A stretch of 64,000 bases of DNA from Hyphomicrobiales bacterium (lineage in GTDB: Bacteria; Pseudomonadota; Alphaproteobacteria; Rhizobiales; Beijerinckiaceae): the NCBI GenBank assembly GCA_004144595.1, contig SEEM01000005.1, forward strand, positions 62,001 through 126,000, read 5' to 3'. The translations under genes and the position numbers were made by a program. The notes beneath the pieces are model-generated. The model searched no databases. It was given only the letters and a program-made list of their open reading frames with translations, and was not told the DNA's origin. Positions 42,363 to 60,495 of this stretch are shown here, piece after piece; within the stretch, counting starts at the first letter, position 1; every line of letters begins with the position of its first letter.

Positions 42363-42427
42363 TGGGTAGGGAGCCCCGGAGGTCAAGCGCGGGATGACGG
42401 CGTGGTTCGGGTGGCAAATTGGAGGCG

Positions 42428-43210
42428 CTACCTGCCCTGCCAGTTCGGCGTCCGCTTGCCCAGAAACGCCTCCATCCCCTCGCGGAAATCGGCGCTGGTA
42501 TAGCAGAGCGTCACAAGGTCGTGGCCGTCGATGCCCGCAGCGGTCGCTGCCGTCAGGCGGCGCATCGCCTCCTTGGTCGCGCGCATCGTCAGGGGCGCGT
42601 GGCCGGCAATGATTTCGGCCAATTCGCGAGCCCGCCGCATCAGCGCCCCATGGTCCGGCACCAGCTCGTTATAGAGGCCGATGCGCGCGCCCTCCTCCGC
42701 CTCGACCAGCCGGGCGGTGAAGACGATATCCTTGACCCGCGCCGGTCCGAGGATGGCGTAGAGCCGTCCGTAATTCTCCATCGACAGGCAGTTGCCGAGC
42801 GTGCGCGCGATCGGGAAGCCGAAGCGGGCCGTCTCCGTCGCGATGCGCAGGTCGCAGGCGAGCCCGATCGCCGCCCCGCCGCCGGTGAAGGCGCCGGAGA
42901 TCGCGGCGATCGTCGGTATCGGGCAGCGCTCGATCGTCTGGATCACCGTCTCGATCCGCTCCTCATAGGCCAGCGCATCCTCGGCGCTGGAGAAGGCGCG
43001 GAACTGCGCGATGTCGGTGCCGGCGGCAAAGGCCTTCTCGCCCGCGCCGGTCATGACGATGACGCGCGGATCGCCATGCGCGGCCGGGTCGCGGCAGATC
43101 TCGGCGATGCGCTCGTACATGGCGAAGGTCAGCGCGTTGCGCGCCTGGGGTCGGTTGAGCGTGATCGTGCCGACCTCGCCTTCGACCGCATACAGGATTT
43201 CGTCGTTCAC
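42428..43210 (-). CDS. Crotonase (enoyl-CoA hydratase/isomerase) family protein
   Basis: 260 aa. The oxyanion-hole GGG (110-112) lies in the typical SGAFTGGGAAIGLACDLRIA. The two catalytic glutamates of enoyl-CoA hydratase (E144 and E164 in the rat enzyme) align with A114 and I134, so water addition is unlikely and isomerase, lyase or hydrolase-type chemistry more probable. CoA-binding parts look normal (AGTDIAQF). It follows the CoA-transferase by 11 nt in one leftward operon, so it probably acts on the CoA ester made there. Confidence 0.85.
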   Translation of the reverse strand: MNDEILYAVEGEVGTITLNRPQARNALTFAMYERIAEICRDPAAHGDPRVIVMTGAGEKAFAAGTDIAQFRAFSSAEDALAYEERIETVIQTIERCPIPTIAAISGAFTGGGAAIGLACDLRIATETARFGFPIARTLGNCLSMENYGRLYAILGPARVKDIVFTARLVEAEEGARIGLYNELVPDHGALMRRARELAEIIAGHAPLTMRATKEAMRRLTAATAAGIDGHDLVTLCYTSADFREGMEAFLGKRTPNWQGR

Positions 43211-43221
43211 GCAGGCCTCCG

Positions 43222-45899: not shown

Positions 45900-45941
45900 T
45901 GCGTTGCCTCCTGCTTGTTGCCCCGACCAGACCAGACCGTC

Positions 45942-45981
45942 CGCTCCGCGTAAAGGAACAGCGGTTTCGTCTTGCGGAATT
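45942..45981. promoter_or_regulatory. Two variant IclR-type sites between aminotransferase gene and iclR
   Basis: Site C1 (45942-45960) is CGCTCC-N7-GGAACA and site C2 (45963-45981) is GGTTTC-N7-GGAATT. Both match the pattern TGTTCC-N7-GGAACA found upstream of the M81 and peptide transporter genes, with mismatches in one half. Reading rightward, C2 is followed after exactly 8 nt by TTGATC (45990-45995), the spacing seen at the other sites, so iclR is probably autoregulated. Confidence 0.5.
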
Positions 45982-46033
45982 TGCTTTCGTTGATCATGCT
46001 GGCTCGCAAGGGAGCCCGACCACAGGAGCGGCC

Positions 46034-46825
46034 ATGCCTAAGAAACCCGACAATCCTTACGTGGTGCAGCCGGTGATGAAGGCGCTGAAGGTGCTGGAGC
46101 TGGTCGCTCGCCATGGCCACGAGATCGCGCTGACCGCCGTCAGCAAGGAGCTCAAGATCCCGAAGACGACGACCTTTCGCTATCTGCAGACGCTGACCGC
46201 GGCCGGCTTCCTTGACCACAACCGCGCAACGGATCGCTACAATCTTGGACCGCAATTGCGCTCCATCGCCCGTGCCGACGCCAGTGTCAGCAAGGTCCGC
46301 GAGCTTGCCCGCCCCGCCATGATCGAGCTGATGCAGGAGTTCAACGAGACCGTGAACCTCGCGGTGAAAGGCAATGGCAGGGTCGTCTATATCGACCTGA
46401 TCGAGGCCAATCGCTCGCTGCGGATGCAGGCCCGCATCGGCGAGAGCCACCCGATGCATTCGACCGCACTCGGCAAGGCGATCCTCGCCTTCATGCCCGA
46501 CGCCGAACGGCAGCGGCAGCTCGACCTGCCCCTGACCGAACGCACCGGCCGCACGTTGCTGGAACGCGAGGAGATCGAGCGGCAGCTCCGGCAGGTCGCC
46601 CGCACCGGCTATGCCACGGAGATGGGCGAGAACGAGGACGGCGCCATGTGCGTCGGCGTGCCGATCCTCGACGAGGACGGCTATCCGGTCGCGGCGATCA
46701 GCGTCTCGGCGCCTTTGATGCGGATGCCGCATTCGCTGGCGGCCAAGGTCGGCACGCGCCTGCGCGAGGTGGCGGCAGGCATCTCGACCCATCTCGGTTC
46801 GCGGCCCACGGCCGATCCGCGTTAG
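46034..46825 (+). CDS. IclR family transcriptional regulator
   Basis: 263 aa. The N-terminal winged helix has YVVQPVMKALKVLELVARHGHEIALTAVSKELKIPKTTTFRYLQTLTAAGFLD (residues 8-61). The C-terminal effector domain carries GNGRVVYIDLIEANRSLRMQARIGESHPMHSTALGKAILAFMPD and AAISVSAPLMRM. The start has AGGAG 7 nt upstream. It is centrally placed between the aminotransferase gene and the peptide uptake operons. Its own upstream DNA carries variants of the palindrome that precedes the M81 and ABC genes, so I infer it controls that regulon, probably as an activator. Confidence 0.88.
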   Translation: MPKKPDNPYVVQPVMKALKVLELVARHGHEIALTAVSKELKIPKTTTFRYLQTLTAAGFLDHNRATDRYNLGPQLRSIARADASVSKVRELARPAMIELMQEFNETVNLAVKGNGRVVYIDLIEANRSLRMQARIGESHPMHSTALGKAILAFMPDAERQRQLDLPLTERTGRTLLEREEIERQLRQVARTGYATEMGENEDGAMCVGVPILDEDGYPVAAISVSAPLMRMPHSLAAKVGTRLREVAAGISTHLGSRPTADPR

Positions 46826-46866
46826 GCGGTTTGGACAATTGCCGGCAATGAAGCTGCTGGAGCCAC

Positions 46867-47019
46867 CGTCGTCATTCCGGGGCAGGCCGCAGGCCTGAGC
46901 CCGGAACCCAGAACCGATGCGGTTATGACGGCAGGCCCCGACCCGACGGCGCTTCTCATAGAAGCGGCATCGGCTCTGGGTTCCGGGCTCTTCGCTGACG
47001 CGAAGCCCCGGAATGACGG
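46867..47019. repeat. Intergenic palindromic repeat, family A (copy 3, long)
   Basis: A large inverted repeat with arms of about 55 nt: CGTCGTCATTCCGGGGC and GAGCCCGGAACCCAGAACCG on the left are mirrored by CGGCTCTGGGTTCCGGGCTC and GCCCCGGAATGACGG on the right, with a shorter unpaired middle. The right arm carries TTCGCTGACGCGAA. It lies between convergent iclR and the DppB-like permease gene, where termination of both would be useful. Confidence 0.7.
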
Positions 47020-47073
47020 TGGAGCCTCGGCACGGCCTCTGCGACCAGATGTCCACGGAAGCTGGAAGCCCGC

Positions 47074-48021
47074 TCATCGGTATTCGATCCGCGGGTCGAT
47101 CCAGGCGTAGAGCATGTCGACCGTGAGGTTGATCAGCATGTAAGCGACCAGGATCACCAGGATGCAGCCCTGGAGCAGCGGGTAGTCGCGGGTGCTGATC
47201 GCCTGGATCAGCAGGCGCCCGAGTCCGGGATAGGTGAAGACCGCCTCGGTCACCACGGCACCGCCGATGAAATTCGCCATCATCAGGCCGACGATCGTGA
47301 CGAAGGGCAGGAGCGCGTTGCGCATGATGTGAAAGCCGACGATGCGGTTCTCCGGCACGCCCTTGGCCCGCGCCGTGCGGACGTAATCGGCCCGCGCCTC
47401 GCCGATCAGCGACGCCCGCAGGAACCGCGCCAGGATGCCCGAGACATAGGTGCCGAGCGTGATCGCCGGCAGCGCGAGGCTGCGCAGCGCATCGACCGGC
47501 GACTCCCAGAACGGAACGTGGCGCGACGCCGAGGGCAGCCAGCGCAGCTCGACTGCGAAGAGCAGGATCAGCAGGATGCCAAGCCAGAAGGTCGGCACGC
47601 CCAGCGCGAGCGCGCTCCAGCCGCTGAGCATCCGGTCGAGCCACGAATTCGGCCGGACCGCGCTGGCGATCGCCACGGGAATGCCGATGACGAGCGCGAC
47701 GAAGATCGCCGCCAATGCAAGCTGGAGCGTCGCCGGCAAGCGCTCGCCGATCAGTTGCAGCACCGGCTGGCGGCTGTGGAGCGACAGGCCGAAATCGCCC
47801 GTCGCCGCCCGGCCGAGCCAGTCCGCATATTGCACCACCATCGGCCGGTCGAGGCCGTAGCGCTGGATCGCGGCGGCGACCTCCTCCGGTCCGGCATTCT
47901 CGCCGACGATCACCGCGACCGGCCCACCCGGCACGGCATAGATCATCGCGAAGATCGCGAAGGAGGCGATCAGCAGCACCGGCAGCATCTGGAACAGGCG
48001 GCGCAGGACATAGGCCGTCAT
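47074..48021 (-). CDS. ABC transporter permease, DppB-like (system 1)
   Basis: Inner-membrane subunit of a dipeptide/oligopeptide importer, 315 aa, six helices. YVLRRLFQMLPVLLIASFAIFAMIYAVPGGPVAVI at the start is standard for the DppB branch. The EAA loop is DYVRTARAKGVPENRIVGFHIMRNALLP. It is last in the leftward operon M81-SBP-permease-permease, with a 4-nt overlap (ATGA) with the DppC-like gene. No ATPase gene belongs to this unit; the OppD/OppF pair of system 2 may supply energy. Confidence 0.9.
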   Translation of the reverse strand: MTAYVLRRLFQMLPVLLIASFAIFAMIYAVPGGPVAVIVGENAGPEEVAAAIQRYGLDRPMVVQYADWLGRAATGDFGLSLHSRQPVLQLIGERLPATLQLALAAIFVALVIGIPVAIASAVRPNSWLDRMLSGWSALALGVPTFWLGILLILLFAVELRWLPSASRHVPFWESPVDALRSLALPAITLGTYVSGILARFLRASLIGEARADYVRTARAKGVPENRIVGFHIMRNALLPFVTIVGLMMANFIGGAVVTEAVFTYPGLGRLLIQAISTRDYPLLQGCILVILVAYMLINLTVDMLYAWIDPRIEYR

Positions 48022-48896
48022 CGCCGCCCCCCGACGATCTCGCCGCTCGCATCGGTCTCGTCGCGGTCGAGGATCGCGGTCAGCGCCCGGCCGATCGTAT
48101 CGAGCGACAGGATCGTCATCGTCAGCACGATGCCGGGCAGAACCGCATAGGTCGGTGCCTCGTAGAGATAGGATTTGCCGGTGCGCAGCATCTCGCCCCA
48201 GCTCGGCGTCGGCGGCGGCACGCCGACCCCGAGGAAGGCAAGCGCCGCCTCCAGCAGGATCGCGATCGAGGCCAGCACGATCGCCTGCACCACCAACGGG
48301 CTCAAGGCGTTGGGCAGGATCGTTTTGAACATGATGTAGGCCGGGCTCCCGCCGAAACCGCGAACCGCCATGACGAAATCGAGCTGGCGCAGCGCCATGA
48401 CCTGTGCGCGGGCGATGCGGGCGAAGCCTGGAATGCCGGCGATGCCGACCGCGATCAGCGCCGCCCCCTGGCTGCGCCCGAGCACGGCGATCAGCGCCAT
48501 CGCGAACAGGATGTTCGGCAGGGCCAGCAGCACGTCGATGCAGCGCATCAGCAGGGAATCGCGCCAGTCACCGTAGAAGCCGGCGGCGAGCCCGATCGGC
48601 ACGCCGACGAGCGCCGCGATCACCACCGCACCCACCGCCGCAACCAGCGATGTCCGGGCGCCGTAGATGACGCGGGCGAAGATGTCCCGACCGAGTTCGT
48701 CGGTCCCGAACCAGTTTTCGGGTGAGGGCGGCTTCAGGGAATCGGCGACGCTCTGGCTCAGCGGATCGAGCGGCAGCAGTCCGGCGCAGGCCGCCGTCAA
48801 CGCGATGAGCGCGAGAAAGGCCAGCCCAAGTGTCGCGCCGCGCCGGGCAAGCAGCCGGCGCAGCACATGGACGAGCGAAGCGGCAGCATCGTTCAT
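48018..48896 (-). CDS. ABC transporter permease, DppC-like (system 1)
   Basis: 292 aa, six helices, second permease of the same importer. NWFGTDELGRDIFARVIYGARTSL is the family N-terminal block, and the EAA loop lies at QLDFVMAVRGFGGSPAYIMFKTILPNALSP. Its C-terminus is hydrophilic (ETDASGEIVGGRR). It begins 37 nt after the binding-protein gene and overlaps the DppB-like gene by 4 nt. Confidence 0.9.
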   Translation of the reverse strand: MNDAAASLVHVLRRLLARRGATLGLAFLALIALTAACAGLLPLDPLSQSVADSLKPPSPENWFGTDELGRDIFARVIYGARTSLVAAVGAVVIAALVGVPIGLAAGFYGDWRDSLLMRCIDVLLALPNILFAMALIAVLGRSQGAALIAVGIAGIPGFARIARAQVMALRQLDFVMAVRGFGGSPAYIMFKTILPNALSPLVVQAIVLASIAILLEAALAFLGVGVPPPTPSWGEMLRTGKSYLYEAPTYAVLPGIVLTMTILSLDTIGRALTAILDRDETDASGEIVGGRR

Positions 48897-48933
48897 GCGC
48901 CGCCGCGCCCGCAGCCTCGCGAGTCCGCTCGGC

Positions 48934-50472
48934 TCATTTGAAACCGATCGTGCGGGCGACGAACAGGTTGTCGATGTCTAGCGTGATGCCGCCGATCTTG
49001 TCGGAGGCAACGATCAGGCCGACATCGTACGAGTTGGTCGGGATCGCGAAGGCCTCGTCGACCAGCACCTTGTTGAGATTGTCATAGGCCGCCTTGACCT
49101 CGGCCGCGCCGCCGGAAGCGGCATCGACCTTGGCGATGGCCTCGACATAAGCCGGGTGCGGGTGCGGGTCCTTCAGCACGGGATTGCCCGAGGTCCTGTA
49201 GATCGAGTTCGTCGCGACGCGCGAGGGGAACTTCTGGACATTGCCGATCGCGCCGAAGGTAGCGTCGAAATCGCCGCCCAGCAGTGCGCTGGTATATTCT
49301 GCGCCTTGACGGACATCGAGGTCGATCGCGATGCCGACCTTGGCGAGCGAGCCCTGCAGGATCTGGCTGATCGCGACGGAGGATTCGTCGGTGCCGTAGA
49401 CCAGGAGCTTCCACGCCTTCGCGTCGGCCGGCGACACGCCTGAATCGGCGATGAGCTTCTTCGCCTTGTCGAGGTCATAGGCATAGGTCTTGATATAGCT
49501 CGCGTCGACGGCCGGGCTCGCCGGCGCCCAGGGCAGCGCAACGATCTCGCCCATGTTGGCGTAGCCGACGCGCAGGATGTTGGCCCGGTCGACCAGATAG
49601 TTGAATGCCTGGCGGAAGGCCTTGTTGCGGAACGGGCCGCGCGTCGAGTTGATGCGCAGGACCTGGACGAGCTTGCCTGGCCCAGAGGTGACCTGATAGC
49701 CGGCCCCCTTCAGCCGGACAGCGCTGCGCGAACTCCCGTTGTAGATGATGTCGGCGGCGCCCGATTCGAGCGCGGCGCTGGCAGCGGCATCCTCGCTGAA
49801 GATCGTGAAGACCAGGTCCTGAACGATCGGCTGCTTCTCGCGCCAGTATTTCGGATTGGCCTTGAGCGTCAGGCTCTGCCCCACCGCGCGGTTCACCAGC
49901 GTGTAGGGTCCGGTGCCGGCCGGCACGGTCTCGACCGTGTCGATACCCTTGGGATCGATCGGGATCAGGAACTGCAGCAGGTCGAGAATCTGGCGCTCGG
50001 GCACCGGCGCCTTGAAGTTGACGGTCACCGTCGCATCGTCCGGCGCCGACCAGTCCTTGACGATCGACATGGTCGCGAAGACGTTCTTGCCGCGCTTGGG
50101 ATCGGCGCCCTTCTGCAAGGTCGCCAGCACTGAATCGGCCTTGAACGGCGTGCCGCTATGGAAGGTCACGCCGCTGCGCAGCTTCAGCGTCACCGCGGTC
50201 TTGTCGGGCGCGATCGTCCATTCCGTCGCCAGGCTCGGCTCCGGCTTTCCCTCAGGGGTGTACTCGATCAGGCTGTCATAGAGGTTCTTGATGACGTGGA
50301 AATTCACCGTCGAGAGCTGCTGCGGATCGTAGTTCGCGAGCTCGCTCAGCACGGCGACGCGCAGCCTCCCGCCCTTGAGCTGCTGGGCGGAGGCTGGAAA
50401 CGTTCCCGCCAGGGATACGCCCGCCAGCGCAAGGCCGGTGATGCCGAATTGACGTCGCGACAGCTTTGTCAT
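48934..50472 (-). CDS. ABC transporter substrate-binding protein, peptide family 5 (system 1)
   Basis: Periplasmic receptor, 512 aa. The N-terminus SRRQFGITGLALAGVSLAGTFPASAQ is a twin-arginine-type signal. Family-5 features include RLRVAVLSELANYDPQQLSTVNF, LRSGVTFHSGTPFKADSV and GTGPYTL. It resembles dipeptide- or oligopeptide-binding proteins; the ligand is unknown. It lies 33 nt after the first M81 gene, whose product could process what is imported. The DppC-like gene follows by 37 nt. Confidence 0.88.
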   Translation of the reverse strand: MTKLSRRQFGITGLALAGVSLAGTFPASAQQLKGGRLRVAVLSELANYDPQQLSTVNFHVIKNLYDSLIEYTPEGKPEPSLATEWTIAPDKTAVTLKLRSGVTFHSGTPFKADSVLATLQKGADPKRGKNVFATMSIVKDWSAPDDATVTVNFKAPVPERQILDLLQFLIPIDPKGIDTVETVPAGTGPYTLVNRAVGQSLTLKANPKYWREKQPIVQDLVFTIFSEDAAASAALESGAADIIYNGSSRSAVRLKGAGYQVTSGPGKLVQVLRINSTRGPFRNKAFRQAFNYLVDRANILRVGYANMGEIVALPWAPASPAVDASYIKTYAYDLDKAKKLIADSGVSPADAKAWKLLVYGTDESSVAISQILQGSLAKVGIAIDLDVRQGAEYTSALLGGDFDATFGAIGNVQKFPSRVATNSIYRTSGNPVLKDPHPHPAYVEAIAKVDAASGGAAEVKAAYDNLNKVLVDEAFAIPTNSYDVGLIVASDKIGGITLDIDNLFVARTIGFK

Positions 50473-50505
50473 CGCTTTCCCCTTTTTGGTGTGTCTGGTT
50501 TCGTT

Positions 50506-52020
50506 TCAGCGCGTCCCCGCTCCCGGCTGGGACGAATGTGCCCGCCAGTCGCTTATTGTCTCCAATGGATAGACCGGGCGCGGAATCCGCTGCCACGGCA
50601 AGGTGAATACGTCCGACTGCCCCGGCCCGCTGGTATCGGCGCGGACGAGCCCGGAGGCGAGGCGATCGAAATACTGGAAATTCGAGGCCGTCTTGAGCAC
50701 CGCCATCTTGTACTCGGAGAGGTCGATCCCGAAGGCCTCGTAGACATCGGGCACATTGCCCGCGACGCCCCGCAATTCCGAGATCAGCAGAGTCACCGGC
50801 CCGACATCGAAGACCGCGACGCGACCCATGTCGACTTCCGGCTGATGGTTGAAGTTCAGCGCAATCGACCCGCCGCCGAGCTTCCTGACCCGCCCGGTCA
50901 CCGTGAGCGGCTTGAAGAAGGCGGTCGCCGCATCGCCGCCGAGCGGCAGCGTCACTTCGGCGCCCTCGCCTGCCTCGGTCAGGGTCGCGACGGCCTTTGG
51001 CGAGATCAGCGGGATCAGAGCCTTGCTCTTGATCCCGAGCCGCAGCATCGATTCCAGCAGCAGGTTGCTGTCGCCGGCCGCGCCGCCGAAGACGGTGTCG
51101 CCGGTGTCGCTGACCACGACCATGCCGCGTTCGGCCGCATCGGCCCTGCGCACGGCATCGTCGATGGAAACCGCCTCGCGCACCTGAAAGTCGTCGCGCA
51201 TCGACCAGGCGAGATCAGCCAGTTCATCCGCCAGCTTCTCCGCGAGCGCCTGGTCGCCATCTGTGACCACGATCGTCGACCAGCCCCCCTCGGCGACATC
51301 GAGCCAGGGCTGCATCGGATAGTTCGAGGCCTGCAAGACGCGCCGGTCGGCCTCGATGGAGCGGGCCCGGTCGAACCAAACCTTCATCGGCCCTTTCGAG
51401 GTCAGGAACTGCTCCTGATGCGAGAGCAGCGGGATCTTGCGCCAGGCCATGACCGGCCTGCTCTTCTCGGTGAGGATACGCAGCAGCACCTCGGTGCCGA
51501 CCTTGCCGGTGTCGAACACGTCATGCGGCTGGGTGCGGTGCCCGACGATGGCCGTGCAATTGGCCATGATCTTGTGGGTGACGTTGGCGTGGTGATCGAG
51601 CCCGAGCAGGATCGGCACGTCCGGCCCCAGAATCTTGCGGCAGAGCTCGACCTGCTCGCCTTCGACATCGTCGATGCCCTCGGCCGCGCAGGCACCGTGG
51701 AGTTGCAGGACGAGCCCGTCGATCGGCCCGGCCATCTCGAGCCCCGCCCGGATTTTTGCCTGGAAGAAATCGAACGCTTCGCGCGAGATGCGCCCGCCTG
51801 CCACGGCAAAGGCGCGGATGATCGGGATCGTCTCGATATCGAGCCCGCTGTCCTTGACAGCCGCATAGTGCCCGCCGATCTGGCCTATCTCCCGGAACTG
51901 CCGTGCGATCTCCTCGCCCTCGACCAGCCCGAACGCCTCATAGTCGGCGAGCGTCGTCGGCAGCGGATTGAAGTCGTTCGTCTCCTGAGCGATGTGGATC
52001 AGCGCAAGGCGCACAGGCAT
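50506..52020 (-). CDS. M81 family metallopeptidase (MlrC-like), copy 1
   Basis: Zinc peptidase of the MlrC family, 504 aa, first known from cleavage of linearised microcystin. Putative zinc ligands are D142 and H144 (LDHHANVTHK) and H166 (RTQPHDV). The N-terminus HIAQETNDFNPLPT and LQLHGACAAEG are family blocks. The C-terminal domain has GDTVFGGAAGDSNLLLESML. No signal peptide, so it acts in the cytosol, on what its operon's transporter brings in. The operator and promoter at 52129-52185 lie about 110-165 nt upstream. Confidence 0.88.
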   Translation of the reverse strand: MPVRLALIHIAQETNDFNPLPTTLADYEAFGLVEGEEIARQFREIGQIGGHYAAVKDSGLDIETIPIIRAFAVAGGRISREAFDFFQAKIRAGLEMAGPIDGLVLQLHGACAAEGIDDVEGEQVELCRKILGPDVPILLGLDHHANVTHKIMANCTAIVGHRTQPHDVFDTGKVGTEVLLRILTEKSRPVMAWRKIPLLSHQEQFLTSKGPMKVWFDRARSIEADRRVLQASNYPMQPWLDVAEGGWSTIVVTDGDQALAEKLADELADLAWSMRDDFQVREAVSIDDAVRRADAAERGMVVVSDTGDTVFGGAAGDSNLLLESMLRLGIKSKALIPLISPKAVATLTEAGEGAEVTLPLGGDAATAFFKPLTVTGRVRKLGGGSIALNFNHQPEVDMGRVAVFDVGPVTLLISELRGVAGNVPDVYEAFGIDLSEYKMAVLKTASNFQYFDRLASGLVRADTSGPGQSDVFTLPWQRIPRPVYPLETISDWRAHSSQPGAGTR

Positions 52021-52128
52021 CCTCCCGGATTGCGGCTCCGGCCGATGCCGGGCGAAGCGGTTTGCGAACGTCAGGGCATCGTTCCGGGCACTTTTTTGGT
52101 CGATCGGCAGCCCGGCGTCATGGTCAAA

Positions 52129-52185
52129 AGCGTAGTTGCGTCAGATATTTCGCGTCAAGGATTGAATGTTCCGCCCAAAGGAACA
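52129..52185 (-). promoter_or_regulatory. Promoter with IclR-type operator before M81 copy 1 (site A)
   Basis: On the minus strand TGTTCC-N7-GGAACA (52167-52185, a perfect palindrome, one more matching base at either end) is followed after 8 nt by TTGACG (52153-52158), and 18 nt on by TACGCT (52129-52134). The stretch CAATCCTTGACG is shared exactly with site B. The operator position just upstream of -35 suggests activation. It drives the M81-SBP-permease operon. Confidence 0.65.
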
Positions 52186-52190
52186 TCGGG

Positions 52191-53150
52191 TCACGCTGCC
52201 GCGCTCTGCTCCTTCGGCCAGTAGCGGCAAGAGACGCCGTGCCCCGGCGTGACCTCATGCCATTCGGGCGTCCCGGTCCGCACGTGATCGACGCCATGGA
52301 CGCAGGCTCCGCCATCCCCATCAAGGAAGCGCAGATCCGGCGGCGGCCGCCGAAGCCGCTCGCGCTGGAGCGCGGGATCTGGAACCGGCACGGCATCGAG
52401 CAAAAGCTGCGTGTAAGGGTGAGCCGGGCTGTCATAGACCTGACCGGCGCTGCCCATCTCGACGATCCGCCCGCGGAACATCACTGCGACGCGATGCGCC
52501 ATTTCCCTGACGATCGCGAGGTCATGCGCGATGAAGAGATAGGACAGGCCGAGCCGCTCCTGCAGCGATTGCAGGAGCGCGACGATCTGCGCCTGGGTCC
52601 GCACGTCGAGCGCCGAGACCGGCTCGTCGCAGACGACGAAATCCGGATTGACCGCAAGCGCCCGCGCGATAACGACGCGCTGGCGCTGCCCGCCCGAGAA
52701 CTCGTGCGGATAGCGCCGCATCATCGCGGGATCGAGGTTGACCAGTTCGAGCAGTTCCTCGACACGCTCGCGGATGCGGTTGGCGGGCACCGTGCGGTGC
52801 ACCTGCAAGGGCTCGCTCAGGATCTGCCCGATCGTCATGCGCGGATGGAGGCTGGAATAGGGGTTCTGCAGCACGAACTGCATATGCCGCCGCATCCTGC
52901 GCAACTCGCCGGATCGCATCGTCGTCAGTTCCTGCCCCATCAGCCGGACCGAGCCCTGGCTCGCCTTCTGGAGCTGAAGGATGGCGCGCCCGGCCGTCGT
53001 CTTGCCGGAGCCGGACTGGCCGACGAGCCCGAGCGTCTGCCCCGGAGCAATATCGAACGAAACGCGCTCGACCGCCTTGACCGGTGGGGCTCCGCGCCGC
53101 GCCGGAAACAGCACGCAGAGATCGCGGACCTGAAGTAGCGGCTCCGTCAT
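52191..53150 (-). CDS. ABC transporter ATP-binding protein, OppF/DppF-like
   Basis: Second ATPase of a peptide importer, 319 aa. Walker A is GQSGSGKTT, the signature is FSGGQRQRVVIARALAVNPD, and Walker B is PDFVVCDEP followed by VSALDVRTQAQ. The C-terminal extension has SCRYW, and a Cys-x-rest pattern (CVHGVDHVRTGTPEWHEV) typical of OppF/DppF. It is last in the second operon, overlapping the OppD-like gene by 4 nt, and ends just before the operator of the first operon. Confidence 0.9.
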   Translation of the reverse strand: MTEPLLQVRDLCVLFPARRGAPPVKAVERVSFDIAPGQTLGLVGQSGSGKTTAGRAILQLQKASQGSVRLMGQELTTMRSGELRRMRRHMQFVLQNPYSSLHPRMTIGQILSEPLQVHRTVPANRIRERVEELLELVNLDPAMMRRYPHEFSGGQRQRVVIARALAVNPDFVVCDEPVSALDVRTQAQIVALLQSLQERLGLSYLFIAHDLAIVREMAHRVAVMFRGRIVEMGSAGQVYDSPAHPYTQLLLDAVPVPDPALQRERLRRPPPDLRFLDGDGGACVHGVDHVRTGTPEWHEVTPGHGVSCRYWPKEQSAAA

Positions 53151-53959
53151 CGCATCGCTCCCGCCCCTTGCAGACGTGGAACCGCGTCGAGCAGCGCCCG
53201 CGTATAGGCATGCTGCGGCTCGGCGAAGACGGCATCGACCGGCCCGGCTTCGACGATCTCGCCGCGATACATCACGTTGACCCGGTCGACCATGCCGGCC
53301 ACCACGCCGAAATCATGGGTGATCAGCATCAGCGCCATGCCGCGCTCCTCCCGCAGCCGCAGCAGGAGCCGCAGGATCTGGGCTTGCACGGTGACGTCGA
53401 GCGCCGTGGTCGGCTCGTCGGCGATCAGTAGGTCGGGCTCGCAGGAGATCGCGATGGCGATCATCACCCGCTGGCGCTGCCCGCCCGAGAACTGGTGCGG
53501 GAAATCGTCGATCCGCCGGGCCGGATCGGGAATCCCGACGAGGTCGAGCAGCTCGATGCTGCGCTCGCGCGCGCCCTTCGCCGAGAGGCCGAGATGGCGG
53601 CGCAGCATGTCGTCCATCTGCGCGCCGATGCTCATTACCGGGTTGAGAGAGGTCATCGGGTCCTGGAACACCATGGCGATGCGCCGGCCGCGCAGGTCGC
53701 GCATCTGGTCTTCGCCGAGCCCGAGCAAGTCCTGCCCCCGGAAGGCGACCGACCCGCCGAGCCCGATGGAGGCTCCCTCCGGTGCAAGCCGCATCAATGC
53801 CTTGGCGGTGACGCTCTTGCCGCAGCCGGATTCGCCGACGAAACCGACTGCCTCGTCGGCATTGATGTCGAAGGAGATGCCGCGCACCGCCTGGATCACC
53901 TCGCGACGGGTCGTCACCGTGGCGGTGAGATCGCGCACCTTGAGCAGCGGGTCCGTCAT
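53147..53959 (-). CDS. ABC transporter ATP-binding protein, OppD/DppD-like
   Basis: 270 aa ATPase, with Walker A GESGCGKSVTAKALMRL, signature FSGGQRQRVMIAIAISCEPDLLIADEPTTALDV and D-loop following. It is shorter than many OppD proteins (about 320), lacking most of the C-terminal domain. It begins at ATG 53959 and overlaps the DppC-like gene by 4 nt on the one side and the OppF-like gene by 4 nt on the other. As the sole OppD-like gene in the region, it may serve both transporters. Confidence 0.9.
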   Translation of the reverse strand: MTDPLLKVRDLTATVTTRREVIQAVRGISFDINADEAVGFVGESGCGKSVTAKALMRLAPEGASIGLGGSVAFRGQDLLGLGEDQMRDLRGRRIAMVFQDPMTSLNPVMSIGAQMDDMLRRHLGLSAKGARERSIELLDLVGIPDPARRIDDFPHQFSGGQRQRVMIAIAISCEPDLLIADEPTTALDVTVQAQILRLLLRLREERGMALMLITHDFGVVAGMVDRVNVMYRGEIVEAGPVDAVFAEPQHAYTRALLDAVPRLQGAGAMR

Positions 53960-54822
53960 CGCACGCTCCCGACGTCGAGAACCTCGCGCAAGCCGTTGGC
54001 GATGATGATGAAGGTCAGCGTCGCGAAGACGATCGCCAGCGCCGGGCCGACCACGGTCAGCGGCGCGAGCTCCATGAACTGGCGGGCTTCCGAGAGCATG
54101 CCGCCCCAGTTCGGATCGGGCGGCGGCGGGCCTAAGCCCAGGAAGGACAAGGCCGTCACGGTGAAGATCGTCTGGGACAGCGTCAGGCTGGTCGCCACGA
54201 GGATGGGCGAGACCACGATCGGCAGGATATGGCGCAGCACGAGCCTGATCTCGCTCATCCCGACGCTTCGGGCAGCCTCGACATGGTCCCATTGCTTGAC
54301 GCTGAGCACGGGCGCCCGCACCACCCGCGCCATTGCCGGCGTGTAGACGATGGCGATGGTCAGGATCAGGTTCGGCACCGTCGGCCCCAGCGCGGCGACG
54401 ACTGCAATGGCGAGCAGCAGCACCGGGAAGGCGAAGACGACATCGAGCAGCCGCATGATGATCTCGTCTGTGCGCCCGCCGAGATAGCCGGCAGCAAGCC
54501 CGAGGATCAGTCCGGCCACCAGCGCGATCAGCACGGCCGAGACCGTGATGAGCAAGGTCGTGCGCCCGCCGACGATCAGGCGGCTCAGCACATCGCGCCC
54601 GATCGAATCCGTTCCCAGCCAATGAGCGGCACTCGCGGGAGCCAATGAATCCGGCGAGGTGGCGGAAGGATTATAGGGCGCAATCATCGGCGCGAAGATG
54701 GTCAGCACCAGCATCGCTGCCAGCATGGCAAGCCCGACGGCAAGCAGCAGCCAGCCCTGCGTGATCCCCGCGCCCTTCCGCGCCGCAGCCACCGGCGCGC
54801 TGTCCTGCACCGTGCCACTCAC
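53956..54822 (-). CDS. ABC transporter permease, DppC-like (system 2)
   Basis: 288 aa, six helices. HWLGTDSIGRDVLSRLIVGGRTTLLI is the family N-terminal block, and the EAA loop is DHVEAARSVGMSEIRLVLRHILPIVVSP. The start is GTG at 54822, overlapping the stop of the upstream DppB-like gene (GTGA), which decides the start. The gene is coupled to the ATPase gene downstream by 4 nt. It is part of the five-gene operon of system 2. Confidence 0.88.
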   Translation of the reverse strand: MSGTVQDSAPVAAARKGAGITQGWLLLAVGLAMLAAMLVLTIFAPMIAPYNPSATSPDSLAPASAAHWLGTDSIGRDVLSRLIVGGRTTLLITVSAVLIALVAGLILGLAAGYLGGRTDEIIMRLLDVVFAFPVLLLAIAVVAALGPTVPNLILTIAIVYTPAMARVVRAPVLSVKQWDHVEAARSVGMSEIRLVLRHILPIVVSPILVATSLTLSQTIFTVTALSFLGLGPPPPDPNWGGMLSEARQFMELAPLTVVGPALAIVFATLTFIIIANGLREVLDVGSVR

Positions 54823-55760
54823 ATCTGCACCCGTGCATCGACGCGGGCATAGGCGATGTCGATCATCGTATTGACCAGCACGACGATGCCGGCCGCGATC
54901 AGAACGATCGCCTGGATCACCGGGTAATCGCGGCTGTTGATGGAATCGAACAGGTACTGCCCCATGCCGGGAATGGCGAAGATGGTCTCGACCAGGATGC
55001 TGCCGCCGAGCAGCGCCGCGATCTTCAGGCCAGCCGCGGTGATGACAGGCGTCAATGCGTTGCGCATCAGGTAGTCGCGCAGGATCGCGGCCGGGGTCAG
55101 GCCCTTGGCGCGGGCGACCATGACGAAATCCTGGTTGGCGACCTCGAGCACGGCGGCGCGCGTGTTCTCCGCGATCGTTACGGAAACCGCGAGTGCCAGC
55201 GCGAAGGCCGGCAGCAGCAGACTGGCGAGATTGCCGAGCGGACTTTCCAGGAAGGGCGTGTAGCCGAGCACGGTGATCTCGGGAAAATAGAGCCCGAAAA
55301 GCAGCACGATCAGCGTCGCCACCACATAATTCGGCACCGCCAGCATCAAACCGTTCCAGAGCCGGACCAGCCAGTCGGTCGCGCCCCGCAGCCGCGCAGC
55401 CGCGAGCCCGGACGCGACGCCCATCACCGCAGCGATGACAGCGGCAAAGAGCGTGAGCTGGATGGTGACGATGAGCCTGTTCAGCAATTCCCCGAGCACC
55501 GGCTGGCGGGTGACGAACGACCTGCCGAAATCGCCGGTCAGCGCCGCGCCGAGCCAGCTCAGATATTGCGCCATCAGGGGCTGGTCGAGGCCGAGATCGC
55601 GGCGGATCGTCGCCAGCACCTCCGGCGCCATGCTTTGCGAACCTGCCGCGGCAATGGCGAAATCGCCGGGAATGGCCCGCATCAGCATGAAGGCGACGAA
55701 GGAGACGCCGAGCAGGATCGCGGCCATCCAGGCCAGACGCCCGAGGACGAAACGCGTCAT
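54819..55760 (-). CDS. ABC transporter permease, DppB-like (system 2)
   Basis: 313 aa with six helices: FVLGRLAWMAAILLGVSFVAFMLMRAIPGDF at the N-terminus is standard. The EAA loop reads NQDFVMVARAKGLTPAAILRDYLMRNALTP. The C-terminus VNTMIDIAYARVDARVQM fits the family. The start is 34 nt after the binding-protein stop, and the end overlaps the DppC-like gene by 4 nt. Confidence 0.9.
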   Translation of the reverse strand: MTRFVLGRLAWMAAILLGVSFVAFMLMRAIPGDFAIAAAGSQSMAPEVLATIRRDLGLDQPLMAQYLSWLGAALTGDFGRSFVTRQPVLGELLNRLIVTIQLTLFAAVIAAVMGVASGLAAARLRGATDWLVRLWNGLMLAVPNYVVATLIVLLFGLYFPEITVLGYTPFLESPLGNLASLLLPAFALALAVSVTIAENTRAAVLEVANQDFVMVARAKGLTPAAILRDYLMRNALTPVITAAGLKIAALLGGSILVETIFAIPGMGQYLFDSINSRDYPVIQAIVLIAAGIVVLVNTMIDIAYARVDARVQM

Positions 55761-55794
55761 CGGGAGCCCTCCGCCGCAAGGCGGAAGGCGGGGC

Positions 55795-57399
55795 CTATTT
55801 CTTCAGCCATGTCGTACGCACGAAGGAACGGATATTCGCGGCGAGCGGCACATATCCCTGAACGTAGTTCCACCAGATCTCCCAGCGCAGCGGATACTGA
55901 TAGACCTGGATGACATAGGCATTGTCGGCGATGCGCTTCTGGATCGCCTGGTTCATAGCAGCGCGCTTGGGAACGTCGAGTTCGGACCGTGCCTCCAAGA
56001 TCATCCTGTCGAGCTCGGGATCGTTCGAGCCCATGCCTTTGCCGTAACCGCTGGTCGAGGTGATGTACTGGAACACGCTGTCGGGATCGGGCGTCCAAGA
56101 CAGCGCGATGGAGAGGAGCGTCGGCCAGTCGCCGCTCGCCCACTTGGCGATAAGCGGCGCGGTTTCCATCGGCACCAGTTTCACGGTGATGCCGGCCGCC
56201 TGCCATTGCTGCTGTAGAATCTGCGCGCAGGCGACATCGAGCGGGTTGGCGGCGACCACGATATAATCGCCCAGGTCGATCCCGTTGGGGTAGCCTGCCT
56301 CGGCCAGCAGAGCCTTCGCCGCCGCCGGGTCATGCTTGTAATAGGGCAGTTCACTGGAGCCGTCATAACCGCCGACCTGGCTTTCCGGGATCATCGCGCC
56401 GACCTTGCCGGCGCCGCCGAGCACGGTGTCGAGGCAAGCCTTGCGGTCCGTCGCGAGGCTGAGCGCCCGACGCACCTTCACGTCGTTGAGCGGCTTGGCC
56501 TTCATGTTCAGCCAGATCGGGAAGGTCCGCGAAGTCTGCCCCGGCGCCGAGACAAAATTCGACGAAGCGCGCGAGATCGCGGTCGCGACCTTGGGATCCT
56601 TCACCCAGGTCATGTCGATGGCGCGCGATCGCAGCGCCGAGGTCAAGGTCGCCTGGTCCTTGTAGAACTTGAAGACGACCTTTGCGAGATAAGGCTCGCC
56701 CTTCTCATAATAGCCATCGAAACGCGTCAGCGAAAACTGCTGGTTCGGCTGATAGGCCTCGAAGGCGAACGGCCCCGTGCCGATCGGCTGGGTGGCGAGA
56801 TTCTCGACGCCGGCCGGCGCGATCGCGCCGTTGGGATTGCTGGCGAGATTGCTGAGGAAGGACGCGTCGGTGGAATTGAGCTGGAACTTCACCGTGAAAG
56901 GGTCGACCACCGTCACCGACTCGATGCTGGAATAGAGCGCCCTGAGCCGGCTGCCCGTCGCCGGGTTCATGATCCGGTCGAAGGTGTGCTTCACGTCCGT
57001 AGCCGTGAAATCCTTGCCGTTGTGGAATTTCACGCCCTGCCGGAGCTTGAAGACATAAGTCTTCGGATCGGGCTGCTCGTAGCCGGTCGCGAGGTCCGGC
57101 TCGACCTTCATCTCAGCGTTCCAGCGCAGCAGGCCGGTATAGAGAAGGCTGGTAAAGTCGTAGGACGAGAAGGCGTTGACCGTGACCGGGTCAAGCCCGA
57201 TCGGATCGGCATCGGCACCGATCGTCAGCGTGCCGCCGGCGACCGGGGCCTGCGCTTGAGCATGCGCGAGGCTGCTCCACAGTCCCGGAGCCGCGAGCGC
57301 AGCGCCGCCCGCCGTCAGCAGATGCAGCAGGCTGCGCCGCTGGAGGCCCTGCGCGACGAGATCGGGCTCGTCAGTCATCGGGAATGACGGTGTCGTCAC
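55795..57399 (-). CDS. ABC transporter substrate-binding protein, peptide family 5 (system 2)
   Basis: 534 aa periplasmic receptor. A cytosolic-looking head (TTPSFPMTDEPDLVAQG) precedes a twin-arginine-like signal QRRSLLHLLTAGGAALAAPGLWSSLAHAQ, so the N-terminal extension is about 18 residues; ATG codons at 57399 and 57378 are both possible starts. Family-5 features are LDPVTVNAFSSYDFTSLLYTGLLRW and FKLRQGVKFHNGKDFTATDVKHTFDRI. It is only distantly similar to the system 1 receptor, so the two systems probably take different ligands. Confidence 0.88.
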   Translation of the reverse strand: MTTPSFPMTDEPDLVAQGLQRRSLLHLLTAGGAALAAPGLWSSLAHAQAQAPVAGGTLTIGADADPIGLDPVTVNAFSSYDFTSLLYTGLLRWNAEMKVEPDLATGYEQPDPKTYVFKLRQGVKFHNGKDFTATDVKHTFDRIMNPATGSRLRALYSSIESVTVVDPFTVKFQLNSTDASFLSNLASNPNGAIAPAGVENLATQPIGTGPFAFEAYQPNQQFSLTRFDGYYEKGEPYLAKVVFKFYKDQATLTSALRSRAIDMTWVKDPKVATAISRASSNFVSAPGQTSRTFPIWLNMKAKPLNDVKVRRALSLATDRKACLDTVLGGAGKVGAMIPESQVGGYDGSSELPYYKHDPAAAKALLAEAGYPNGIDLGDYIVVAANPLDVACAQILQQQWQAAGITVKLVPMETAPLIAKWASGDWPTLLSIALSWTPDPDSVFQYITSTSGYGKGMGSNDPELDRMILEARSELDVPKRAAMNQAIQKRIADNAYVIQVYQYPLRWEIWWNYVQGYVPLAANIRSFVRTTWLKK

Positions 57400-57542
57400 G
57401 AGCGATCCTCCCAGTATCCTGCTTGCCGGCCGACCCCGGCCGCTTCCGCGCGAGATGGAGCCGGCCTTCGCCGTGCCACCGTCATCGCTGCCCGGCCCGT
57501 TTCATCCGCTTGCGGATGGCGGACCTTCCCTCTGTGATATGC

Positions 57543-57598
57543 AGGCTAGGAACCGCCTTAATTCACGTCAAGGATTGCAGGTTTCACCAGAAGGAACA
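57543..57598 (-). promoter_or_regulatory. Promoter with IclR-type operator before ABC system 2 (site B)
   Basis: On the minus strand TGTTCC-N7-GAAACC (57580-57598) is followed after 8 nt by TTGACG (57566-57571) and, 17 nt on, by TAGCCT (57543-57548). Operator left half, the 8-nt gap and the CAATCCTTGACG stretch match site A. It drives the binding-protein, permease and ATPase operon. Confidence 0.65.
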
Positions 57599-57612
57599 GA
57601 TTCGGAAGTGCG

Positions 57613-58917
57613 TCAGAAGAAGGTCCGGATTGCACCGGTGATGGTCCAGTCGTCATCCACCAGCATCAACACCGCCCATTTATCGAAGGTCAGGCAGGGA
57701 TGCGCGATGCCGAAAGCCACCATATCGCCGACCTGCAGCGGGCTCTCCTCCGGCGTGCCGAGATGGCAATGCTGGTCGTTGAGCGCCAGCACGTTATGCC
57801 CGGCCGGCATCGGCTCCGGCCGTACCATCCCGCTCCCCGGGCGATACCAGCGCAGCGGCACCGGCAAGGCGGAATCATAGGTGACGTCGCGCTTGCCGAG
57901 CGTGAGCAGGCTGCGCCCACGCTCCGGCCGCGACTGGACATAGGCCCAGACCTCGAGAGCGGGTTCGAGCCCGCCCGGCGGCAGCTTCAGGCTGGTCTCC
58001 AGCATGATCCGGCGGAAAGACGCCGAATAGCCGAGATCGTCATGCGTCAGATAGCAGCCGGAGCGCAGCACCTTGAGCAGCGGGCGCCCGAGGCTCGCCG
58101 CATTGAATTTCTCGCCGACGCGGTCGAACAGCGCAGTTCCGCCGGCGCTCAGCACCAGAGGCTCGGGGCTGAGCAGGCCTTCGGCATTCGCCGCCGCCGC
58201 GACAGCAATCACTTCGTCGAGCAGCTTGTCGGCGCCTGCACTGTCGCTGTGCAGCCCCTCGAAACATTCGAAGCCGGCAAGCCTAAGGCCCGGCGCGGCG
58301 GCAGCCGCTCGTGCCACGGCCAGCGCCTCCTCGCGGGTCCGGGCGCCGGTACGCCCGCCCATGAAGCCGATCTCGACGAGGATGCCGAGCGGATTGGCGC
58401 CCGCATGCCCCTTCGCCGCTTCTGCCAGCAAGCCAACCCCGGCGACGCTGTCGGCGAGGCAGTAGAGCTCGAAACCGGGCTCGCGCAGCACCTGGAAACA
58501 ACAGGCGATCTCCTGCGGGCCCACCGGCTGGTTGGCGAGGATGACGCGCTTCACGCCGAAATGCCGGGCGACGGCGAGCTGCTGCATCGTCGCGACGGTG
58601 ATCGCCCAGGCGCCGTCGGCGATCTGCAGGTCGAACAGCTGCGGCGCCATCGTCGTCTTGCCATGCGGCGCGATCAGCAGGCCGTTGCCGGCGCTGAAGG
58701 CGCTCATCCAGGCACTATTGGCCTTGAGCACGCTCTCGCGGATCACGGCGAGCGGCATCGGCATGTCCCCGGCGAGCACGTTCCACCCCTGCTTGCCGAC
58801 GTCGCCGAGCCGTACAGAGGCCCCCGCCGGCATGCCCTTCACCAGCCCATCGAGGCGCTGGTCCTCGATCTCGCGGAGCGACAGGCGCGGGAGCGGGGCA
58901 GAAGCAGTCACAGCCAT
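57613..58917 (-). CDS. D-amino-acid deaminase / D-threonine aldolase-fold protein
   Basis: PLP-dependent enzyme of the alanine-racemase-N / DSD1 group, 434 aa. The PLP lysine is probably K87 in LIAPHGKTTMAPQLF. A C-terminal metal site looks present (NDQHCHL and IAHPCLTF), as in D-threonine aldolase and eukaryotic D-serine dehydratase. The usual annotation is amino acid deaminase. Being encoded 10 nt inside the end of the second M81 gene, it likely acts on D-residues released by that peptidase (inference). Confidence 0.82.
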   Translation of the reverse strand: MAVTASAPLPRLSLREIEDQRLDGLVKGMPAGASVRLGDVGKQGWNVLAGDMPMPLAVIRESVLKANSAWMSAFSAGNGLLIAPHGKTTMAPQLFDLQIADGAWAITVATMQQLAVARHFGVKRVILANQPVGPQEIACCFQVLREPGFELYCLADSVAGVGLLAEAAKGHAGANPLGILVEIGFMGGRTGARTREEALAVARAAAAAPGLRLAGFECFEGLHSDSAGADKLLDEVIAVAAAANAEGLLSPEPLVLSAGGTALFDRVGEKFNAASLGRPLLKVLRSGCYLTHDDLGYSASFRRIMLETSLKLPPGGLEPALEVWAYVQSRPERGRSLLTLGKRDVTYDSALPVPLRWYRPGSGMVRPEPMPAGHNVLALNDQHCHLGTPEESPLQVGDMVAFGIAHPCLTFDKWAVLMLVDDDWTITGAIRTFF

Positions 58918-60374
58918 GGGTTCGGGTCCAGCGGAGAGAAGGGGCGTTTCACCTTGGTATAGGGGATCTTGCTCGCGTCGGGCGGATAGGGTCCACCGCT
59001 GTCGAGATAGAGCACGCTCGCGGCCATCGGCGCGAAGGCGGCGTGGAAATGGTTGGAGGATTTCACCACCACCACCTTCTTGGCGCCGAGGTCGATGCCG
59101 AGATTGGTGAAGACCGGCGGGCTGAAGGTCTGCGCCCGGGTCGAGGCCAGCACGATATCGAGCGTGCCGATCCGGATCGCCGCCGCCGGCCCGAGCGAGA
59201 CCCAGCTCTGCTCGAACGGGATCAGCAGGTCCGCGGTCGTGCCGGTGACCGTCACCACGGCGTCGATCGGCCGGCCCGAGGACGGCGCCGCCTTGCCGAT
59301 GAAGCGCAAGGGAATCTCGGTCCCGACGCCGGCCGCCCGGCACAGGCTCACCGCGACCGGGTCCCACAGCGCGCCGATAGCCGCCGGAATTTCCGGATGG
59401 CGCAGCAGCGCCTCGACCATCACCGAGGAATCGCCCGCGACGCCGCCACCCGGATTGTCCCAGCGATCGGCCAGCACCACCGGCTTGCCGGGCTGGGCCA
59501 GCTCGACCGCTGCGGCGATGCCCTCCTCGGGCTTGTAATGCTTCGGCGAGGCACCCTGCCCCCAGCGCAGGATTTCGAGACCGAGTTCTTTCGCCAGCGC
59601 AGCCGCCTTGGCCTCGTCGCCATCGGCAATGACCAGCACCTTGCTCCCGACATCGGCGACATCGGCCGCCTGGAAACCATGCGCGACCGAGATCGAGAGG
59701 ATGCCGTCTTTCCCTTCCATCGCCAGGAGGCGGTCGACGAAGCTGCGTCCGGGCTCGCGGCTGGTCATGAAGGCCGCGAACCCTCGGCAATCGAACACCG
59801 CGCTCACCGGCTTTACCTGCCCCCGCGCCGTCTTCAGGCAAAGCTCCAGCAAATCCTCGGCCCGCGCCAGAAAATCCGTATGCGGGAACTCCTTGAAGGC
59901 GACGATGATGTCGGCGCCCCCGACCATCTCGGCGGTCAGATGGCAATGCATGTCGAGTTCGGCTCCGATGACGCAGTCCGGCCCGGCCAGCGCCCTCACC
60001 CGCGCAATCAGGTCTCCTTCGCAATCGTCATAGCCGCGCGCCACCATCGACCCGTGCAGGCCGAGCAGCACGATGTCGACCGGCAGCGCCGCCTTGAGCT
60101 GGTCCAGAATCTCATCTCGCAGGCTCTCATAGCCCTCCTGCGAGACGAGGCCGGCCGGCTCCGCCCAGGTCGCCGTGCCCTCGACCAAGTCATAGCCTTC
60201 GCTGGCGGCCCCGCGCCGCGCCGCCACGGTGGGCGCCGAGCACAGCGTCGGCGTGTCCGGATGCGTGCCGGGCGGACAGTAGAAGCCGCCCTCGAAGGCG
60301 CTGCGATCGACGAAGAGCGGCGCGAACGTATTGGTTTCCGTCGCCAGCGAGGCCGTAAAGACGCGCATCCGCAT
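58908..60374 (-). CDS. M81 family metallopeptidase (MlrC-like), copy 2
   Basis: 488 aa from ATG 60374. Putative zinc ligands are D141 and H143 (ELDMHCHLTAEM) and H165 (FPHTDF). ATETNTFAPL at the N-terminus and LLGLHGSMVARGYDDCEGD are family blocks; ADRWDNPGGGVAGDSSVMVEALL is the C-terminal one. No signal peptide. It overlaps the deaminase gene by 10 nt and is divergent from M81 copy 3; a palindrome between them is spaced correctly for both. It differs widely from copies 1 and 3, so this is no recent duplication. Confidence 0.88.
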   Translation of the reverse strand: MRMRVFTASLATETNTFAPLFVDRSAFEGGFYCPPGTHPDTPTLCSAPTVAARRGAASEGYDLVEGTATWAEPAGLVSQEGYESLRDEILDQLKAALPVDIVLLGLHGSMVARGYDDCEGDLIARVRALAGPDCVIGAELDMHCHLTAEMVGGADIIVAFKEFPHTDFLARAEDLLELCLKTARGQVKPVSAVFDCRGFAAFMTSREPGRSFVDRLLAMEGKDGILSISVAHGFQAADVADVGSKVLVIADGDEAKAAALAKELGLEILRWGQGASPKHYKPEEGIAAAVELAQPGKPVVLADRWDNPGGGVAGDSSVMVEALLRHPEIPAAIGALWDPVAVSLCRAAGVGTEIPLRFIGKAAPSSGRPIDAVVTVTGTTADLLIPFEQSWVSLGPAAAIRIGTLDIVLASTRAQTFSPPVFTNLGIDLGAKKVVVVKSSNHFHAAFAPMAASVLYLDSGGPYPPDASKIPYTKVKRPFSPLDPNPWL

Positions 60375-60448
60375 GCTCTTTCGATCAGGGGCGGCAGCCG
60401 CCCCTCGGACTGCCGACCAACCGCATGAGACCGGCACGGGGTGCGGCC

Positions 60449-60495
60449 TGTCAAAGCACCTGCGTTCCCTACGATGGAACAATGCTGGCTTGATC
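60449..60495. promoter_or_regulatory. Divergent IclR-type operator between M81 copies 2 and 3 (site D)
   Basis: CGTTCC-N7-GGAACA (60463-60481) is flanked symmetrically: 8 nt to the left, on the minus strand, is TTGACA (60449-60454), and 8 nt to the right is TTGATC (60490-60495). The same palindrome can therefore serve both genes. The -10 elements are weak on both sides (TCTCAT leftward at 18 nt; none clear rightward), as expected of activated promoters. Confidence 0.65.

Follow-up and report, generated by a model that had tools for sequence, protein, structure and literature searches.

What controls the genes for peptide uptake and M81 metallopeptidases that lie side by side in a member of the Hyphomicrobiales? 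The 64,000-nucleotide (nt) stretch analyzed here (the window; assembly GCA_004144595.1, contig SEEM01000005.1, positions 62,001 to 126,000) is part of a 4.95-Mb draft genome whose relatives are Bosea, with 14 loci that carry IclR orthologues 88-97% identical to the one here. Open reading frames (ORFs) and a Pfam domain search show that 14 genes fill the block at 44.6-62.0 kb, and spacing and strand predict the following units: M81a-SBP1-P2-P1; SBP2-P4-P3-OppD-OppF; M81b-DTA; M81c; iclR; and an aminotransferase gene (SBP, solute-binding protein; P, permease; DTA, a pyridoxal phosphate (PLP) enzyme resembling D-threonine/3-hydroxyaspartate aldolase).

A first-pass annotation proposed that one palindrome with fixed spacing, TGTTCC-N7-GGAACA, joins the uptake and M81 genes in a regulon of the IclR-family protein whose gene lies at 46034-46825. 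The analysis reported here makes a convincing case that these operators are real and conserved, and that control by this adjacent regulator explains them best: a known type of gene switch in a new example. The core of the palindrome, GTTYC-N7-GRAAC, is very probably the operator through which this IclR would activate four promoters and control its own gene.

Palindromes and boxes in the window

Every one of the four intergenic regions able to hold promoters for the block contains the palindrome. Three sites carry an exact core: S1 (TGTTCCGCCCAAAGGAACA, 52167-52185), between the oppF stop codon and M81a, which is the sole perfect copy of TGTTCC-N7-GGAACA in the genome; S2 (GGTTTCACCAGAAGGAACA, 57580-57598), with two mismatches to that palindrome; and S3 (CGTTCCCTACGATGGAACA, 60463-60481), with one mismatch, common to the divergent M81b and M81c genes. 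Each is followed after 8 nt by a −35-like box: TTGACG at 52153-52158 (minus strand) for the M81a operon; TTGACG at 57566-57571 (minus) for the SBP2 operon; and, to either side of S3, TTGACA at 60449-60454 (minus) for M81b and TTGATC at 60490-60495 (plus) for M81c. Two conventions describe this distance: 8 nt from the full palindrome equals 9 nt from the core to TTGA. The centres of S1-S3 lie about 80-190 nt from start codons, and all sites are intergenic, given the start codons adopted here.

These coordinates agree with the first-pass annotation, which had placed palindromes correctly at 52167-52185, 57580-57598, and 60463-60481 (0, 2, and 1 mismatches). Its 8-nt gap to TTGAnn is likewise exact: the minus strand shows it at 52.1, 57.6, and 60.4 kb, and the plus strand at 60.4 kb. 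The "variants" that it had listed at 45942-45981, beside iclR, exist as sites, but they are in fact two: operator A, CGCTCC-N7-GGAACA (45942-45960; two mismatches to the palindrome), and operator B, GGTTTC-N7-GGAATT (45963-45981), with centres 21 bp apart and one mismatch each to the core.

Because counts of the palindrome alone are unconvincing (see below), the composite with fixed spacing was used: core, 9 nt, and TTGA. It has exactly four exact matches in 4.95 Mb, all in the cluster. One mismatch adds five more, including one at 45964 beside iclR, and the backwards control, at up to one mismatch, yields none on the forward strand and one on the reverse. The composite is clearly not a chance pattern. 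The exact core by itself occurs at 20 sites in the genome (11 in the control), three of them in the cluster.

The one-mismatch composites outside the cluster were inspected at all three places (L098, L100, and L102), as were two (L002 and L003) of the eight genome palindromes with up to one mismatch outside it, both of which overlap open frames. Judged from these frames without a gene call, the L002, L003, L098, and L100 sites, overlapping frames of 290-588 codons, are probably coding; the L102 site is overlapped only by frames of 81 and 66 codons. The first-pass annotation had itself named many equally good matches in coding DNA as the finding to fear. That objection falls away for the composite and very nearly holds for the palindrome alone.

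A search of 67 genomes (composite with TTGAC, up to two mismatches, counted by hand) covered 12 cluster-bearing and 29 cluster-less Bosea genomes and 26 genomes outside the genus. The cluster-bearing genomes hold 49 matches (4 in the control), of which 38 fall in the cluster; one genome, G024, has no match in its cluster. No excess is seen in the cluster-less Bosea genomes (16 matches, 24 in the backwards control) or outside the genus (19 and 31). Eleven matches in the cluster-bearing genomes fall outside the cluster, such as the recurrent AGTTCCTCCGGCAGGAACATGCCGCC in G018, G021, and G026; background numbers in cluster-less genomes are similar.

Conservation in Bosea and beyond

For comparison, 20-kb loci were taken from every Bosea relative in which the IclR search gave a match at E ≤ 1e-50, 25 in all; with the window, these make 26 sequences. 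Each of the 25 relatives has the genes iclR, aminotransferase, P1, P2, SBP1, M81a, M81b, and M81c, and the aminotransferase gene adjoins iclR in every one. The second opp operon is found in 14. In the other 11 (L036, L041, L042, L045-L051, and L055), SBP2-P4-P3-OppD-OppF is absent from this place, and M81a there adjoins the PLP enzyme gene, or M81b in L041 and L055.

Upstream of M81a in 26/26 sequences, and of SBP2 in 15/15, there is an exact core with TTGA 9 nt further on; the box of M81b keeps its distance in 25 of the 26. Half-sites are closer to the window than their surroundings: identity in the M81b/M81c region is 95% for half-sites, 38% for the spacer, and 69% for the rest (26 sequences); in the M81a region, 88%, 57%, and 57%; and in the SBP2 region, 93%, 81%, and 70% (15 sequences). 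The loci of the 25 relatives hold 86 TTGA boxes that start no more than 24 nt from an exact core, and 78 of these are at the 9-nt distance.

The tandem operators beside iclR are kept as well. The right part of operator A, GTAAAGGAAC, is invariant in 26/26 and its left half-site is poorly conserved; the half-site bases of operator B are invariant in 26/26, the first base excepted; and the register of GTAAAGGAAC and GTTTC-N7-GGAAT of operator B is the same in every Bosea sequence. The TTGATC that stands 9 nt after operator B was considered as a conserved feature and rejected, being present in 1/26. On the aminotransferase side of operator A (45899-45942, minus strand), a GGTCTG/TCTGG-like box (by eye) takes the place of a consensus −35, some 9 nt from the core; it is common to Bosea and to the distant loci L076-L079, L081, and L092.

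In seven of the 25 relatives (L039, L040, L041, L043, L046, L047, and L049), M81c is followed, inside the 20-kb locus, by a gene for a family 3 binding protein of the polar amino acid type, which was not found after M81c in the window. The SBP_bac_3 domain was identified in the L046 copy, and permease-like frames follow the gene in five loci (by eye). All seven genes have an exact core beginning about 105-110 nt upstream, then TTGTT or TTGCT 9 nt on; the operator layout thus extends to a gene that has newly joined the cluster. This gene is the example offered for a broader proposal, to which we give even weight for and against: that a rigid module (GTTYC-N7-GRAAC, 9 nt, TTGA) is reused by one lineage of IclR activators. 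The iclR and aminotransferase genes would form a near-constant core; transporters, M81 peptidases, and PLP enzymes would come and go from species to species, and every added operon would acquire the same module.

An operator of this IclR is expected to track the regulator rather than the transporter, which makes the distant loci the decisive comparison. Orthologue searches at the level of class (385 genomes), family (149), order (347), and phylum (398), on sets that overlap in part, identified 12 IclR orthologues outside Bosea, 50-57% identical, in six families including that of Bosea; the phylum search added no further orthologue. The same motif adjoins the iclR orthologue in 12/12 of these distant loci. 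It lies directly upstream of iclR in ten: nine have GTTYC-N7-GGAA (up to one mismatch to the core), and L088 has GTTTC-N7-AGAA (two). The other two, L080 and L093, have iclR after the gene for the PLP enzyme; there the site precedes SBP1, the next gene. Six of the 12 (L076-L079, L081, and L092) have an exact copy of the second box, GTAAAGGAAC, and L088 has an altered one.

The promoter layout also recurs. In six of the 12 loci, from three genera (L076-L080 and L093), a binding-protein gene is preceded by a core with TTGAC exactly 9 nt after it. The binding protein of L080 and L093 is 63-66% identical to SBP1; that of L076-L079, one genus, is just 24-30% identical to the Bosea proteins. Near an exact core in the 12 distant loci, six of seven TTGA boxes lie at the 9-nt distance. 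Neither flank of the near-perfect palindromes at L076:16189, L077:16395, and L079:16288 shows a TTG box at 9 nt. The aminotransferase gene is near iclR in 11/12 distant loci (63-67% identity); it was not found in L092.

A half-site matrix built from 14 distant sites, with the Bosea sites excluded, was scored on the window. Its first four ranks are 57581 (S2), 60464 and 52168 (S3 and S1, tied), and 45964 (operator B); operator A ranks 14. In 20 Markov-resampled control windows, one position in all reached the fourth-best score. On the protein side, the recognition-helix stretch PKT[TS]xFRYLxTL is common to 17/17 orthologues compared (5 Bosea, 12 distant). At the thresholds used, 26 of 121 genomes have IclR, and the same 26 have M81a; no genome has M81a without iclR. 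Together, and independently of the first-pass argument, the distant orthologues, the published motif (below), and this co-occurrence support the regulon proposed in the first-pass annotation.

Some distant loci show further features. L081, from another family, has the tandem pair twice, upstream of the aminotransferase gene (L081:3232) and between iclR and a binding-protein gene (L081:5014). In L093, also from another family, a second, divergent IclR-family gene (5834-6589; 31% identity) lies between M81c and M81b. In L080, an apparent RidA-like protein is encoded at about 4717-5265, upstream of the aminotransferase gene (by eye from DNA); it would fit imine-forming PLP chemistry.

Probable activation and its alternatives

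The predicted mechanism has IclR binding the palindrome as a dimer, with two dimers at the tandem pair next to iclR. Each of the four structural promoters (M81a operon, SBP2/opp operon, M81b-DTA, and M81c) would carry the protein 8 nt upstream of the −35 box, always on the same face of the helix; the palindrome centre is estimated to lie near −54. There it would contact RNA polymerase when it senses a small metabolite derived from the imported compound, and so activate promoters whose −10 boxes are poor. The tandem operators lack a conserved TTGA at that distance and would control iclR and the divergent aminotransferase gene. We infer binding and autoregulation from these patterns. Given binding, activation is probable, judged from position: it is the best reading because the palindrome lies wholly upstream of the −35 box, on one fixed helical face, and the −10 boxes are poor.

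Several observations weigh against activation by this IclR. A strict σ70 scan finds no promoter at the palindrome sites, and the −35/−10 assignment therefore rests on conservation. Counted alone, the palindrome occurs 22 times in the window at up to three mismatches, against 14.3 ± 4.2 expected (6 of 100 shuffles reach 22), and 10 times in the genome at up to one mismatch, as in the backwards control. Nor is conservation perfect. The core at M81b is exact in 22/26 and has one mismatch in four (L052-L055), and the TTGA there lies 8 nt rather than 9 nt from the core in L048. The full palindrome at M81a has three to four mismatches in 8/26, and the L054 locus has no site within two mismatches of it; these sites hold only with the degenerate core. 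Farther afield, L089-L091 have lost the left operator at iclR (the GTAAAGGAAC box), and the four g336 genomes represent one genus, hence are not independent.

Binding might also have the opposite effect, with IclR repressing the transport and M81 genes until an inducer releases it; this is unlikely. Many IclR-family proteins repress, AllR for example; PcaU and PobR are activators. The operators at iclR sit in a divergent region, where repression is usual, and sites just upstream of −35 can serve repression as well. Yet S1-S3 lie wholly upstream of −35 at one distance, kept across promoters and families, whereas a roadblock would tolerate other positions. The poor −10 boxes, together with the failure of the strict scan to find a consensus promoter, also speak against a repressor.

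Alternatively, another regulator encoded elsewhere, an IclR paralogue or a TetR/GntR-type protein, could bind the palindrome while the adjacent IclR does something else. A loose first search gave 23 genome candidates for the IclR query, and paralogues with similar sites may exist. Such an arrangement is nonetheless improbable: the motif adjoins 12 distant orthologues of this very IclR; cluster-less Bosea genomes have no motif excess; the invariant pair stands at the iclR promoter itself; and iclR is the only regulator gene that Pfam detects among the 14 block genes.

Chance repeats, or duplicated promoters without binding function, are scarcely credible and already refuted in substance, even though the palindrome alone is not enriched at up to three mismatches and S1 and S2 have CAATCCTTGACG in common: spacers and flanks differ among sites, half-sites are kept while the spacer drifts, and the same fixed layout recurs in distant loci, among them those of a genus whose binding protein is barely similar. 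The first-pass dismissal of chance is thus borne out by the uniqueness of the composite, the conserved half-sites, the fixed spacing, and the distant loci.

Activation by the adjacent IclR accordingly remains the preferred reading. It gives the M81 (MlrC-like) peptidases and opp-type transporters of Bosea and its relatives a specific regulon that is cheap to test, and it suggests that the pathway centres on the aminotransferase. If module reuse is true, the shared substrate, probably peptide-like or a beta- or D-amino compound processed by the aminotransferase, would be traceable through the regulon.

The gene block and known systems

Pfam domains over the 14 genes are those of M81 peptidases, ATP-binding cassette (ABC) transport, PLP enzymes, and IclR; the remainder are weak generic ATPase and helix-turn-helix matches. 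The class III aminotransferase (HemL/GSAM-like; 44583-45899, minus strand; PF00202, 9.7e-61), divergent from iclR, scores below the cut-offs of the NCBIfam GSAM models. The regulator, proposed for the whole cluster, follows on the plus strand (HTH_IclR and IclR_C domains; PF01614, 6.8e-40; PF09339, 6.2e-13).

The first transport operon, on the minus strand, probably begins with M81a (50506-52020; PF07364, 1.5e-75; PF07171, 3e-32), followed by the family 5 binding protein SBP1 (48934-50472; PF00496, 1.4e-71) and the ABC permeases P2 (48018-48896; PF00528, 5.6e-25) and P1 (47074-48021; PF00528, 9.1e-42). The second opp operon, also on the minus strand, is headed by another family 5 binding protein, SBP2 (55795-57399; PF00496, 9.5e-92). 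It continues with the permeases P4 (54819-55760; PF00528, 2.8e-32) and P3 (53956-54822; PF00528, 4.6e-28; start codon uncertain) and the oligopeptide ABC ATPases, OppD-like (53147-53959; PF00005, 2.9e-28; PF08352, 4.5e-07; start codon from the ORF, uncertain) and OppF-like (52191-53150; PF00005, 1.7e-30; PF08352, 2.8e-09). M81b (58908-60374, minus strand, within a longer ORF of 58908-60482; PF07364, 2.4e-76) is divergent from M81c (60555-62039, plus strand; PF07364, 8.7e-77; PF07171, 2.6e-40). The gene for the fold-III enzyme DTA (57613-58917, minus strand; PF14031, 2.9e-16; PF01168, 5.4e-07), its start codon taken from the ORF, overlaps the M81b stop. The flank at 40741-44415 of the window holds genes for an M20 peptidase, an enoyl-CoA hydratase, and a family III CoA-transferase; a palindrome scan of 38.0-44.6 kb at up to three mismatches finds no site.

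All three M81 proteins contain PF07364 and PF07171 (M81 N-terminal and MlrC C-terminal domains), and M81b is the closest to the microcystinase MlrC (PDB 7ylq, E 3.2e-114). Its residues E13, H107, D141, H143, and H165 are invariant across M81a, M81b, and M81c, and their equal spacing suggests that they equate to the MlrC zinc-centre set, Glu56/His150/Asp184/His186/His208 (PMC12474180). M81 peptidases are thus common to this block and the mlr microcystin-degradation genes described there, but Pfam detects nothing of the mlrA/mlrB kind among the 14 block genes. Against the curated MlrC model (NF041767, cut-off 999 bits), the three proteins score 98, 136, and 397 bits, far below the cut-off; therefore, microcystin is not implied and is an unlikely substrate. 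The ligand of the regulator is probably a pathway product, either a keto acid or an amino acid. Since the aminotransferase gene is the steadiest neighbor of iclR, one guess is that the ligand is a substrate or product of this enzyme.

The regulator is a member of the IclR family (PF09339, 48.7 bits, cut-off 22; PF01614, 136.9 bits, cut-off 24). The nearest NCBIfam model is BhcR (NF045644), which the regulator is not (176 bits, cut-off 350); it also falls short of the PcaR/PcaU model (135 bits, cut-off 285). Similarly, DTA, scored on a shorter frame, reaches 67.7 bits against the BhcC model (cut-off 690). BhcR, from the beta-hydroxyaspartate cycle of Paracoccus denitrificans, has a proposed dual role. 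Like this regulator, it is divergent from its target and has a palindrome, as proposed, just upstream of the target (bhcA) −35 box; the regulated genes differ (PMC11323563). PcaU and PobR, also of the IclR family, share palindromic boxes with an extra box, but use GTNCG-type half-sites and serve aromatic catabolism (PMC8222616).

No published account of this regulon was found in searches limited to open-access papers, and the main text of PMC8222616 makes no mention of COG5476, MlrC, oligopeptide, dipeptide, Bosea, or Methylobacterium. The closest known system nevertheless comes from that survey, which describes the tandem arrangement for 94 orthologous groups of IclR proteins; the centres of tandem sites are 18-22 nt apart in many, but not all, groups (Suvorova & Gelfand 2021, PMC8222616). 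Its group 1 (ii) consensus is GTTYCRYW3RYGRAAC. The GTT-11-AAC operators of group 1 have the same half-sites, GTTYC and GRAAC, and the same 7-nt spacing as S1-S3; tandem sites stand at the regulator gene, as here (21 bp between centres), where the pair is kept in distant families; and the regulogs are small and local, as here. The inner consensus RYW3RY disagrees with the S1-S3 spacers GCCCAAA, ACCAGAA, and CTACGAT (by eye), a further point against the assignment, treated here as a peripheral feature of the group 1 consensus. What also sets S1-S3 apart from group 1 is their position, some distance from the start codons yet fixed relative to −35. An IclR operator that keeps this distance across different promoters and several families would help settle how IclR proteins activate.

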